This document shows positions 27,901-33,137 of a stretch of DNA of 64,000 nucleotides, one piece after another. The DNA lies in the NCBI GenBank assembly GCA_013289685.1, contig JABCZL010000006.1, positions 248,001 to 312,000 of the forward strand, read 5' to 3'. The translations under genes and the position numbers were made by a program. The DNA is from Acidobacteriota bacterium (GTDB taxonomy: Bacteria > Acidobacteriota > Terriglobia > Terriglobales > Acidobacteriaceae). A model generated the notes under the pieces. That model made no database searches, was not told the origin of the DNA, and saw only the letters and a program-made list of their open reading frames with translations. How positions within the stretch are numbered: position 1 is the stretch's first letter; the number at the start of each line of letters is the position of its first letter.

Positions 27901-28428
27901 ATGGCTCGACAATCCACGCACCAGACCAAGGCCAACCCGGAGAAATCTCCGCGGCGTGACCCTACAGCGTCGGGCGAGCGAGACGCTGCCGTTAATAGGA
28001 TCGCTTCACATAACTACTTCTTGCTGGAAAAATTTGAGGCGGGGGTGGTTCTTACTGGGACCGAGGTCAAATCGGTCCGGGGGGGCCTGGCCAACCTGAA
28101 GGACTCCTACGGTTTGGTCAAGGAGAATGCGGTCTGGCTGCTGAACGCCCACATCGGCCCGTACGAACACGGGAACATTCACAACCACGCCCCGCTGCGT
28201 ACCCGGAAGTTGCTGATGCACAGCGAAGAGATTCGCAAGCTGATCGGGAAAACGCAGCAGAAGGGGCTGACCCTGATTCCCACGCGACTGTATTTCAAGA
28301 ACGGGCGGGTCAAGGTGGAACTGGCTCTGGCCAAGGGCAAACAGCTCTGGGACAAGCGGGAGACGGAGCGGCGGCGGACGGCGGATAAAGAGGCGCGGGA
28401 TGCGATCGGGCGCAGCAGGAAGGCGTAA
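27901..28428 (+). CDS. smpB: SsrA-binding protein SmpB
   Basis: 175 residues. After a basic extension of about 25 residues comes the canonical OB-fold: [73 protein letters not shown] and KKGLTL-type [20 protein letters not shown], ending with the [10 protein letters not shown] tail that binds the decoding site. It binds tmRNA (SsrA) and is required for rescue of stalled ribosomes. No ssrA gene is visible nearby. No Shine-Dalgarno precedes ATG 27901; a heptamer hairpin array lies just upstream. Confidence 0.97.
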
Positions 28429-28487
28429 GGAGCACCAAAGTTCTGGTATGTGGGTGCGGGGAAGTCATCCGGGGAAAATCATCCCGG

Positions 28488-28525
28488 TTGACGCCTTCCT
28501 TGGCATGCACTACACTGTAGTGCAT
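28488..28525 (+). promoter_or_regulatory. Promoter with palindromic operator overlapping a leaderless start
   Basis: TTGACG (28488-28493), a 17-bp spacer and TACACT (28511-28516) form a sigma70-type promoter that would start transcription at about 28523-28524, the A of the antitoxin ATG. A palindrome with 10-bp arms ATGCACTACA and TGTAGTGCAT spans 28505-28525, covering the -10 box and the start codon. This fits autorepression by the antitoxin and translation of a leaderless mRNA. Confidence 0.65.
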
Positions 28526-28862
28526 GAAGACGGAAGTTTACAGCTGGCGTCTATCGGCAGATAGAAAGGCCGAGCTTGAGGAAGAGGCTCGCCGCGAAGG
28601 GACATCACTGTCCGCGCTGCTGGACCGAGTGACCGCCGACTGGCTGGCCGAACGGCGCAACGGTCATTCCGAGGATGAAGCCGAGCAAGCCGCGATTCGC
28701 AAGCGGGCCATGACGGCGATCGGCTCGGTCGCGGGCGACGATCCAACGCGCGCCGAGAGAGCCGGCGAACTAGTTCGGGAAATCATCTATCAAAAGCATC
28801 GCAAGGAATCCAATGCGCTCGCTCGCCGTTTCGGCCGCCGGACTGCCCGCCGCTCTGATTGA
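28524..28862 (+). CDS. Ribbon-helix-helix-like antitoxin of a PIN toxin pair
   Basis: 112 residues. The N-terminus (TEVYSWRLSADRKAELEEEA, REGTSLSALLDRVTADWLAE) has the beta-strand plus two-helix pattern of ribbon-helix-helix DNA-binding antitoxins; the C-terminal part is charged and probably wraps the toxin. The stop overlaps the PIN toxin gene by 50 bases, typical of coupled toxin-antitoxin genes. No Shine-Dalgarno exists because the start appears leaderless (see promoter). Family assignment is by pattern, not by a diagnostic motif. Confidence 0.75.
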   Translation: MKTEVYSWRLSADRKAELEEEARREGTSLSALLDRVTADWLAERRNGHSEDEAEQAAIRKRAMTAIGSVAGDDPTRAERAGELVREIIYQKHRKESNALARRFGRRTARRSD

Positions 28863-29268
28863 CACCGGAGTTATTCTCGCGCTCGTGGATCGCAACGACG
28901 GTTGGCACGACGCTTGCGTGCGGGCTTACAACAACAGCCGCCTGCCCCTTCTTACAACTGAAGCCGTGCTGGCTGAGGTATTCCATCTGGCCCGGAGAAA
29001 GGTTCCCGATGCTCGCGGCGTCTGGCAACTGCTCCGCTCGGGCGCGATTCAGATGTCGGAAATTGCGCACGGCGAATTGTCCCAGCTTCAGACCCTAATG
29101 CAAGATTATGCCGACCGCCCGATGGATTTCGCCGACGCCACGCTGGTGCATCTCGCTGCCCGTGAACACCTCGGCACGATTCTGACCATCGATCATGACG
29201 ATTTTGAAACCTACCGACTCCCTGGGCGGAAGAAGTTCACCATCCTGCCGCGCCGGCAGGGAAGTTAG
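28813..29268 (+). CDS. PIN-domain ribonuclease toxin (VapC type)
   Basis: 151 residues; AAGGAATCCA precedes ATG 28813. PIN-domain acidic residues are visible: D in ALIDTGVILALVDRNDGWH, E in TTEAVLAEVFHLARR, and D in MDFADATLVHLAAREHLGTI with the final DHDDFETYRL. VapC toxins are Mg-dependent RNases that cut tRNA or rRNA until neutralised by the antitoxin, which is encoded just upstream with a 50-base overlap. Confidence 0.85.
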   Translation: MRSLAVSAAGLPAALIDTGVILALVDRNDGWHDACVRAYNNSRLPLLTTEAVLAEVFHLARRKVPDARGVWQLLRSGAIQMSEIAHGELSQLQTLMQDYADRPMDFADATLVHLAAREHLGTILTIDHDDFETYRLPGRKKFTILPRRQGS

Positions 29269-29312
29269 GCCGTCGAATGTCCACCAGGATGGGCCACTAC
29301 ATCGGGAGACCC

Positions 29313-29347
29313 GATCATTGATCATTGATCATGGATCATGGATCATG
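29313..29347 (+). repeat. Five tandem GATCAT(T/G) heptamers ending in the smr-like start codon
   Basis: Units at 29313, 29320, 29327, 29334 and 29341: two GATCATT then three GATCATG. The last unit supplies ATG 29345. The three GATCATG copies offer ATG codons in three different frames, of which only the last opens the real gene. Confidence 0.85.
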
Positions 29348-29680
29348 AAGACAATCAATCTCAAGTCCGATATGCCTTCGGTGCTGGAGGCGCTGCAGCG
29401 GCTGGACCGCGAGGTCATCGTTGCCCGGCAGGAAAAAGTGGCGTTGCTCAAGGTCGTCCACGGTTATGGGTCGAGCGGGGTCGGGGGCGATATTCGTATT
29501 GCGGTGCAGAGGCATTTGCACGACTTGGCGGAGGCTGGCCGGATTCGCGGGTGCATTTTCGGAGAAGACTGGTCGAAGGCGGATGAGGCGACCTGGCGGC
29601 TGTTGCAGGCTCGGGCGGAGTTGAAGAGCGATCCGGATTTGGGGAGGCGGAATCCGGGGATTACGGTTGTGGTGGTCTGA
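29345..29680 (+). CDS. Smr-domain-like small protein
   Basis: 111 residues. ALLKVVHGYGSSGVGGDIRI followed by AVQRHL matches the core of Smr domains (hydrophobic-HGxG-G-LR), seen in MutS2 and in stand-alone nucleases that act on branched DNA or collided-ribosome mRNA. The N-terminal strand is KTINLKSDMPSVLEALQRLD and the end NPGITVVVV fits the last strand. There is no Shine-Dalgarno; the start codon lies within a heptamer repeat. It follows the VapBC-type pair but is probably unrelated to it. Confidence 0.75.
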   Translation: MKTINLKSDMPSVLEALQRLDREVIVARQEKVALLKVVHGYGSSGVGGDIRIAVQRHLHDLAEAGRIRGCIFGEDWSKADEATWRLLQARAELKSDPDLGRRNPGITVVVV

Positions 29681-30861: not shown

Positions 30862-32988
30862 CTAAACTGCCCACCACGCCAGAGCCTGGCTGACCCATTG
30901 CGTCGCAAACAGCCAGTAGGTGGAGAGTTTGCGGGTGGCCTTGGGATTTGCCTCGACTATGTGGCTGTTGTTGAAATCGTTGCGGTCGATCTGCACCGAA
31001 TGGTCGGGATCAAGTTCCGCGGAGACGACCTTAGCTTTTTTCTGATAACTGTATCGGATCCAGCGGTTCTTTCCGTCCCAGTGCTCGCGGACCTTTTCGC
31101 CGTTATCGAACTTGATCTCGACTTCGACCGGCATCACGAAGTCTTCCTTGCGATGAAGCGACACGTAGGACTGGTAGACGGTGTCGTCTTTAGCGTCCTT
31201 CTTGCCGTCCTTCTTGCCGTCCTTCTTGCCGTCCTTCTTGCCGTCCTTCTCGTCTTTCTTGTCTTTCTTTTCGTCGTACCAGTTTACCGGGAAGGAATGG
31301 ACATCGAGCACTTCGTAGTCCATGACCTCGGTTCCATATACGGCCTGATCGAAGTACCAGCGGAGGTTCTTGCCGGAAACTTCTTCAATCGTCTTGAGGA
31401 AGTCTTCCTTGGTGGGATGGGTGAAGCGGTACTTCATGAAATACGTGTGCATGGCCTTGTCCATGGTGTCTTCGCCGATGATGCCTTCGAGGGTGAGCAG
31501 CACGCTGGCCGTTTTGCCGTAGGTGATGCCACCGTAGGAGGCTGAATCGTGGTACTCGTAGGCCTTCTCGGCTATGGCATCGCGATCGGCCACGCCGATG
31601 AAGAAGAGCTGCTGCTGCTCGCGCTCGCCGATGGTAGCGCCCGCGATGTTCATGATGGATGTGTTCTTGCCCAGAATCGAATCCAGAACTTTGACTTCGG
31701 TGTAGCTGTTAATGCCTTCGTCCATCCAGGCATCTTCAAATTCGTTCGTAGCCACCATACCGTACCAATATTGGTGGCCGAATTCGTGTTCCACAACCAA
31801 TTCAGGCAGGTACACACCGTCCGGCATAAGCCAGCTCGTGCCTCCAGTGATGAAGGTGGGGTACTCCATGCCTCCCGCTGCCGAGTCAGGCTCGGGGTCG
31901 ACCACGGTCAGGGTCTTATAAGGATACGGGCCGTACCATTTTTCAAAGCGGTCGAGCGTTTCGGTGGTGATTTTTTCGTGGCGTTCGGCCTGGCTCCAGT
32001 GCGCGGGCTGCATGAGGAAGCGCAGCTTGATCGGACCCATCTGCGATTGATACACGCTCTCCCGGACTTTGTAGCGCGGGCTGGCCGTCCAGGCGAAGTC
32101 GTGGATGTCGTCGCCGTGATAAGTCACGGTCTTGGTGTTGTCAGGATTGTTCTTTTCGTCGACCATGACGCCGCTGGCGCCGACGACTTCATAGGCTGGA
32201 ACCGTGAGCTTGACGTCATACACGCCGAAGTCGGCGAAGAACTCGGTGGTGTTGTGATACTGGTGGCAGTTCCATGCTCCGTGCCAGAACACGGCGACCT
32301 TCGGAAACCACTGACCTCCGAGCACGAAATCGCGCTTCCATCCCGAACGCGCCTGGGTCTCGGGAAAATTGGTTTGAAAGGCAATCTTGAATTGCACGTA
32401 CGCACCGGGCACGATGGGCTTGGCCACATGCAGATCGACGACGGTTTTGTCGTCTTTGTTGCCATCGTCGGGGGAGATGTATTGCAACTGCGACGTCAGA
32501 TCGCCCTGGCCGACCACTTCGAGGCTTTTGATCTCCTCCGAACCGTAAAGCTTTTCTTCCCACTTCTCATAGGCAACGTCGCGGGTGCCCATGAGTTTTG
32601 AATCACGGACAAATGTAGCCTTGGGTTGAAATGCGTTCTGATAAAGATGGAAGGGGAAGTGGTCGAGGGCCTGCCCGGTCAGGTTGTGGTAGGTGAGCAC
32701 CTCGGTGGCGTCGACGGTGTGCTTGACCGCATCGTACTTCGCGTCGATCTCGTAATGCACCACGCGCTCCGACATGGGCTTGTCGGAGTTGATGGCCAGC
32801 GTGGTGTTGGGGATGGAGATTCCTGCTGGTACCGCTTCTTTGGCGATCTTGGCTGAGGGTGGGGCCTTGACGGTTGGAGCCGCTGCTTGCGGGGCGGCGG
32901 CTGCCGTAGCTGTCTTGCGGTTTATGAGAGCAGTGAGTCCCAGGGCCAACACGGCAACGAGCGCGACCAGCTTCCATCGAATCTGCAT
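30862..32988 (-). CDS. M1-family zinc metallopeptidase (HEFGH type), exported
   Basis: I start at ATG 32988 because AGGTGAGGTTCTTC precedes it and a membrane signal follows (LVALVAVLALGLTALI); the upstream frame to 33096 looks spurious. The 708-residue protein has a beta-rich N-domain and a gluzincin domain with H401-E-F-G-H405 in VVEHEFGHQYWYGM and the third zinc ligand region AWMDEGINSYTE. The usual GAMEN motif reads GGMEYPTFITGG, as in the non-aminopeptidase M1 branch. A run of KKDG units at about residues 575-600, encoded by 12-bp tandem copies (31196-31250), is inserted in the C-terminal domain. It probably degrades peptides in the periplasm. Confidence 0.9.
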   Translation of the reverse strand: MQIRWKLVALVAVLALGLTALINRKTATAAAAPQAAAPTVKAPPSAKIAKEAVPAGISIPNTTLAINSDKPMSERVVHYEIDAKYDAVKHTVDATEVLTYHNLTGQALDHFPFHLYQNAFQPKATFVRDSKLMGTRDVAYEKWEEKLYGSEEIKSLEVVGQGDLTSQLQYISPDDGNKDDKTVVDLHVAKPIVPGAYVQFKIAFQTNFPETQARSGWKRDFVLGGQWFPKVAVFWHGAWNCHQYHNTTEFFADFGVYDVKLTVPAYEVVGASGVMVDEKNNPDNTKTVTYHGDDIHDFAWTASPRYKVRESVYQSQMGPIKLRFLMQPAHWSQAERHEKITTETLDRFEKWYGPYPYKTLTVVDPEPDSAAGGMEYPTFITGGTSWLMPDGVYLPELVVEHEFGHQYWYGMVATNEFEDAWMDEGINSYTEVKVLDSILGKNTSIMNIAGATIGEREQQQLFFIGVADRDAIAEKAYEYHDSASYGGITYGKTASVLLTLEGIIGEDTMDKAMHTYFMKYRFTHPTKEDFLKTIEEVSGKNLRWYFDQAVYGTEVMDYEVLDVHSFPVNWYDEKKDKKDEKDGKKDGKKDGKKDGKKDAKDDTVYQSYVSLHRKEDFVMPVEVEIKFDNGEKVREHWDGKNRWIRYSYQKKAKVVSAELDPDHSVQIDRNDFNNSHIVEANPKATRKLSTYWLFATQWVSQALAWWAV

Positions 32989-33137
32989 GAAGAACCTCAC
33001 CTGTATGGGCTGCGGCTTTGAATCATATCGCAGGCGATCCAATGCCGCCATCTCGACCGCGTGACTTGACTTGGAAAGTACGGGCAAGGCAGTCACCTTG
33101 TTCCGGCATTTGGTGGCCGCTTAATGCCAATACCGTT

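Follow-up and report, generated by a model that had tools for sequence, protein, structure and literature searches.

The operon described here, located in a 64,000-nucleotide stretch of DNA (the window), is probably of the VapBC type, with a sigma-70-like promoter, a transcript that begins leaderless at the ATG of the antitoxin, and autorepression at a dyad. To judge from its sequence, the promoter, the dyad, an in-frame stop codon and the start codon share one conserved block, of which a single 19-base stretch holds the −10 box, the probable transcription start, the stop codon and the A of the ATG. In the mechanism that we propose, a sigma-70-like promoter (the sigma factor is assumed), whose −10 box ends 7 bp before the ATG, would drive the operon, and the 19-bp dyad, centred on −9, extends over the −10 box and the expected start point as far as the A of the ATG. 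Transcription by RNA polymerase would begin with the A of the ATG, or with the base preceding it, giving a leaderless mRNA. The antitoxin, better when joined by the toxin, would bind the dyad as ribbon-helix-helix (RHH) dimers and exclude RNA polymerase, and the promoter would reopen when the antitoxin level drops. The antitoxin would be translated from the 5'-terminal AUG without a Shine-Dalgarno (SD) sequence, and translation of the toxin would be coupled to it through an overlapping start.

Table 1. Features of the locus and its two neighbours (positions in the window).
Feature	Position	Strand	Basis or remark
smpB, upstream neighbour	27901-28428	+	PF01668, E=1.3e-56
−35 hexamer TTGACG	28488-28493	+	Promoter scan and conserved T at −36
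Spacer, 17 bp	28494-28510		Between TTGACG and TACACT
Perfect inverted repeat, 11-bp arms around C28515, putative operator	28504-28526	.	
Constrained operator core, 19 bp	28506-28524		Comparison of relatives
−10 hexamer TACACT	28511-28516	+	Promoter scan and conserved columns
In-frame TAG stop within the operator (position −6)	28518-28520	+	
Probable transcription start (A of the ATG, last base of the operator core)	28524	+	From the position of the −10 box
Antitoxin ATG	28524-28526	+	
Antitoxin, 112 aa	28524-28862	+	RHH-like N-terminus MKTEVYSWRLS
PIN-domain toxin, VapC-like, 151 aa from the ATG at 28813	28813-29268	+	PF01850
Smr-like gene, downstream neighbour	29345-29680	+	Pfam match below cut-off

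The toxin and antitoxin genes

The gene pair is predicted to be a type II toxin-antitoxin (TA) operon of the VapBC sort, formed by an RHH-like antitoxin and a PIN toxin. The toxin matched PF01850 with 43.4 bits (cut-off 23.6; E=6.4e-11), and among 39 toxins the acidic residues E55, D105, D108 and D127 were invariant, with D17 kept in at least 90%. Its gene overlaps that of the antitoxin by 50 bp, the gene order is the same in the relatives, and L025 and L075 have an ATG at the same place as the toxin ATG. The first-pass annotation had located a TA operon at 28488-28862; the reading as a TA operon is supported by the comparison (RHH-like antitoxin and PIN toxin), but this interval comprises the antitoxin only and leaves out the toxin. 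The NCBIfam search gave nothing above cut-off (TIGR00028, Mtu_PIN_fam, reached 18.7 bits, below its curated cut-off of 73.6) and PADLOC called no system. A plasmid search with the toxin returned 36 records, all below 60% identity, and the antitoxins named beside those toxins, where listed, bore other CopG/RHH/ParD annotations. The plasmid search with the antitoxin gave no match.

Against the Pfam RHH_1 profile (PF01402) the antitoxin scored 12.7 bits, below the gathering cut-off of 20.5, and 22 of the 59 members of the antitoxin alignment matched this profile at E ≤ 0.1 (best 2.9e-5). In an RHH fold of the Arc/CopG kind, two helices come after a short strand at the N-terminus; the predicted monomer showed helices H12-24 and H29-65 and no strand (pTM 0.39). 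The top Foldseek matches of this model were the RHH proteins KacA, NikA, AtaR, CopASO and Arc, with TM(target) up to 0.89 and weak E-values, all above 0.04 (best 0.045). The N-terminal stretch KTEVYSWR, which we take to be where RHH proteins contact DNA, is well conserved among the antitoxins, and its conservation is in keeping with that of the operator. L063 and L074, both from records labelled Pseudomonadales, have single reading frames in which a long N-terminal part without the usual RHH strand precedes the C-terminal half of the antitoxin.

The promoter, operator and start codon

The promoter elements named in the first-pass annotation, TTGACG and TACACT separated by 17 bp, are present at 28488-28516. 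They were recovered by a promoter scan of 28380-29400, with 9 of 12 matches, and this region contained 2 promoter-like sites against 0.3 expected in shuffled sequences. Two signs have been used to define leaderless genes, the lack of an SD and a −10 box (TANNNT) placed near −12 relative to the start codon (PMC3160421). Here TACACT begins at −13 and no SD was found, the positions from −15 to −4 being occupied by the palindrome itself. The palindrome was also confirmed over the −10 box and the ATG, although its arms are of 11 bp (28504-28526) and not of 10 bp (28505-28525) as annotated previously; it reads CATGCACTACA-C-TGTAGTGCATG (11+1+11). A start of the antitoxin upstream of 28524 was ruled out, because the in-frame TAG means that translation cannot begin upstream of this ATG. 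Neither a terminator nor an Rfam element was identified at the locus by the terminator/promoter scan and the Rfam search.

Comparison of the upstream regions in relatives

For the comparison, the best 80 of the 110 confirmed relatives found by a toxin search of genome contigs were taken as loci. When 200 genomes of the source's family were searched with the antitoxin, 10 held a match, the source genome among them. Ninety loci (L002-L091) and the window made up 91 sequences. The antitoxin start was located by a protein motif in 65 of them and in 26 none was found; once 5 near-copies were removed, 60 non-redundant sequences remained, window included. The motif used for finding the start lies in the protein and not in the upstream DNA, and ATG starts were preferred. 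Start finding covered the + strand; L003, L005 and L007 were read separately, outside the 60-row set.

Only two upstream blocks were conserved in the 60 sequences, TTG at −36 to −34 and the stretch from −19 to −1, with a flat profile elsewhere upstream. T occupied −36 in 43/60 sequences and TTG stood exactly at −36 in 23/60, at −37 in 9/60, and at each of the other 14 offsets tried in 0-3/60. The upstream consensus was TGCACTACANTGTAGTGC, with the ATG immediately after it, and the −10 columns were, out of 60, T55 A54 C56 A54 N T53. The conserved 19-bp dyad is TGCACTACA-N-TGTAGTGCA, its last A being the A of the ATG. Around the centre at −9, a mean of 8.58 of 10 pairs were symmetric in the 55 regular rows, against 1.3-4.5 for 21 other centres tried. 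The arms displayed little covariation because most symmetric positions hardly vary; pair −14/−4 was altered on both sides in 5 rows, its observed symmetry was reached by 2 of 2000 permutations, and it alone stood out for covariation when the 5 irregular rows were omitted. A stop codon in frame at −6 within the operator was found in 45/60 sequences (TAG in 36, TAA in 9), which bars a start further upstream in these, and an SD-like 4-mer upstream of the antitoxin ATG in 1/60, namely L053, whose start codon is shifted downstream. The first-pass placement of the promoter's start point at the ATG is thus supported by the conserved −35 at 17 bp and the conserved −10 box, which make it probable.

The layout was kept in records labelled Acidobacteriota, Pseudomonadota, Planctomycetota, Gemmatimonadota, Latescibacterota, Myxococcota and Rokuibacteriota, and a near-typical copy was present in one labelled Verrucomicrobiota; these phylum names were taken from metagenome-assembled records and may in some cases be mistaken. 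The nearest named relatives at the locus are labelled Acidobacteriota. A chance match of promoter and palindrome, of the sort that can arise at single loci, is refuted by this comparison: the pattern is conserved in the 60 sequences, the operator site is unique in the source genome (6.85 Mb) at up to 3 mismatches, where the reversed-pattern control gave 0, and this control gave 0 matches in 396 genomes as well. We assign practically no weight to it.

A second alternative is that the palindrome is the target of some regulator other than its own antitoxin. Binding of the dyad by the antitoxin is deduced from sequence, and in a few viral contigs (L123, L124) the same 18-mer accompanies other genes. 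However, the site accompanies this antitoxin across many lineages and has no second copy in the source genome, and the exact 18-mer, present in 3 of 396 genomes, was each time at this RHH-like antitoxin family. We consider another regulator very improbable, and binding by the operon's own antitoxin the preferred reading. G370 and G352 carry the 18-mer at antitoxin copies that look damaged. As to the viral contigs, the 18-mer at L123:1003-1020 has TTGACG upstream and is directly followed by the ATG of a small ORF of an unrelated kind, possibly a second gene family with this layout. At L124:11244-11261 (− strand) 3 bases separate it from the start (ATG) of a different RHH-like gene, and the ORF after that gene looks PIN-like by eye.

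Variants among the relatives

In L053 the palindrome is kept, ATC takes the place of the ATG, and GGAGGT and a new ATG follow; the position at which the promoter would start transcription is retained in this copy, which has gained a short SD leader. Symmetric changes at two dyad pairs, −14/−4 and −16/−2, were found in L043 (TGTAGTACA-C-TGTACTACA). One extra base precedes the ATG in L019, L035 and L042, and L017 has a 1-bp insertion in the palindrome. The −10 box is TACACC in L025 and L057, and the dyads of L038 and L062 are weak. Among the loci with other outcomes, L005 and L007, read separately, have the operator site at the ATG, no antitoxin start was found in L003 and no clear operator site in L009.

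The operator and the N-terminal part of the antitoxin were not found at L015:2620-2830 nor in L003/L130, and the toxin still matches there; a GC-rich, repeat-like stretch occupies their place at L015:2620-2830. In L020 and L030 a second, imperfect palindrome-like stretch was seen by eye adjoining the operator upstream (TTGTATTGCAATGTGATGCAA in L020).

RNA folding and transcription from upstream

The operon could also be leadered, if its transcripts came from smpB by read-through or from a further upstream promoter; the palindrome would then have no function but that of a hairpin in the RNA at the start codon. The longer RNA does fold in this manner: in 28488-28560 the palindrome closes over the AUG (−29.5 kcal/mol, z −4.0), and RNA folding paired the AUG in 54/60 sequences against 85/161 neighbouring ORFs. 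In addition, smpB ends 95 bp upstream, on the promoter side of the locus and on the same strand. However, the −35 is conserved at 17 bp from the −10 box, no conserved SD or other block lies upstream, and such a hairpin would keep the AUG hidden at all times. Pairing of the AUG follows from any palindrome placed there and is no evidence of selection on the RNA. A leadered operon is in our opinion very improbable, and leaderless transcription from the promoter at the ATG is retained.

Both roles might be combined in a double lock, in which the block would act as operator in the DNA and, in RNA coming from upstream, as a hairpin over the AUG together with the in-frame stop. We regard this as speculative and rather unlikely. 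If true, its own leaderless mRNA would be the antitoxin's sole source. The cassette would then be shielded from transcription around it and would not rely on the SD usage of its host, which would help it to function in many lineages; the block would then have arisen through leader loss from a leadered ancestor.

Genomic neighbourhood and host background

smpB and the Smr-like gene also flank the TA module in L002, L003, L012, L015 and L025. In G176, of the same genus, the roughly 130 bp that separate the two genes contain no TA match (L133), and the presence of the TA module is therefore patchy. Directly before the ATG of the Smr-like gene (29317-29345 of the window), GATC occurs five times at 7-bp steps, with 0 or 1 in 9 relatives. 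Further downstream, at 30862-33096 on the − strand, a peptidase-like protein has by eye a C-terminal lysine/aspartate-rich repeat, KKDGKKDGKKDG.

In 304 kb of the source genome (186 ORFs, 105 of them starting with ATG), TANNNT stood at −13 in 1/105 with no peak, and an SD-like 4-mer preceded 35/105 ATG ORFs against 13/105 in the control; ORF starts were crude here, as the longest ORF was taken, which blurs the true starts. Leaderless starts thus looked rare in these 304 kb. Similarly, the 161 ORFs in L012-L091 had an SD-like 4-mer in 42 cases against 14 in the control, and TANNNT at −13 in 1. As TANNNT at −13 is rare and SD usage clear in the surroundings, on this evidence the layout would be a property of the TA cassette rather than of the surrounding genes. 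The leaderless genes predicted in three Acidobacteria (9.7-19.4%; PMC3160421) make leaderless translation plausible in Acidobacteriota.

Distant relatives and origin of the leaderless layout

Eight more distant toxins (L076, L078, L080, L082, L083, L085, L088 and L091) have other antitoxins, and in these loci the best palindrome was centred between −19 and −42, well away from the ATG. An SD-like 4-mer preceded the ATG in six of them (L078, L080, L083, L085, L088 and L091). L076 and L082 had none, and L082 and L083 showed a weak palindrome only; the leadered outgroup rests mainly on L078, L080, L085, L088 and L091. In a tree of 74 toxins the EVYSWR-type systems grouped together (62 rows, SH-aLRT 96) with the eight distant toxins outside. 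The tree was quick, built on few columns and midpoint-rooted, and 9/74 toxins fell in no group. Since the EVYSWR clade holds together and the SD-leadered distant loci lie outside, the leaderless layout would seem to characterize a single clade, and it is probably derived. On this tree the labels require 7 changes, and for the leaderless label the starred branches impose 3 or more; strict scoring, which classed 6 mostly near-typical rows as 'other', accounts for part of this.

Comparison with known systems

The nearest solved structures to the toxin profile were VapC26 (E=2.1e-16) and VapC20. The latter is named as a 23S rRNA endonuclease, and by this likeness 23S rRNA may be suggested as the toxin's target. 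VapBC26 of M. tuberculosis (PDB 5X3T) resembles the present system in its PIN toxin, and VapB26 is a weak match of this antitoxin's profile (E=0.15), although the antitoxin sequences are hardly similar. Of the 37 TA pairs of M. tuberculosis that have a primary transcription start, 32 are leaderless (Cortes et al., 2013; PMC3898074); those transcripts were measured, whereas a leaderless mRNA is deduced at this locus, and the excerpted text of that paper makes no mention of operators over the start codon. The 18-bp operator of MazE6 adjoins the transcription start and includes the −10 region, and mycobacterial TA operators are usually centred on the −10 (PMC9477884). However, that system is a MazEF and not a VapBC, and no fusion of operator and ATG is mentioned in the excerpt of the paper. 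In the paaR2-paaA2-parE2 locus the regulator paaR2 is translated leaderless in E. coli (PMC8630535), but it is a separate, third-gene regulator and not an RHH antitoxin. CvkR is likewise a repressor translated from a leaderless mRNA and with a palindromic binding motif (PMC9938897), although it is a MerR-type regulator of CRISPR-associated transposons. TA operators overlapping the −10 box were already known (reviewed in PMC3920265; PMC9477884). At the level of titles and abstract openings, the papers searched gave no description of this family, nor of a leaderless antitoxin whose start codon is merged with an operator.

The leadered outgroup and L053, which has gained a leader, make the question of why TA operons are often leaderless testable by leader swaps. 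Leaderless TA mRNAs and operators overlapping the −10 box being both known, this family appears to be an unusually clean and conserved natural case, in which one short DNA block would serve as promoter element, transcription start, start codon and operator.
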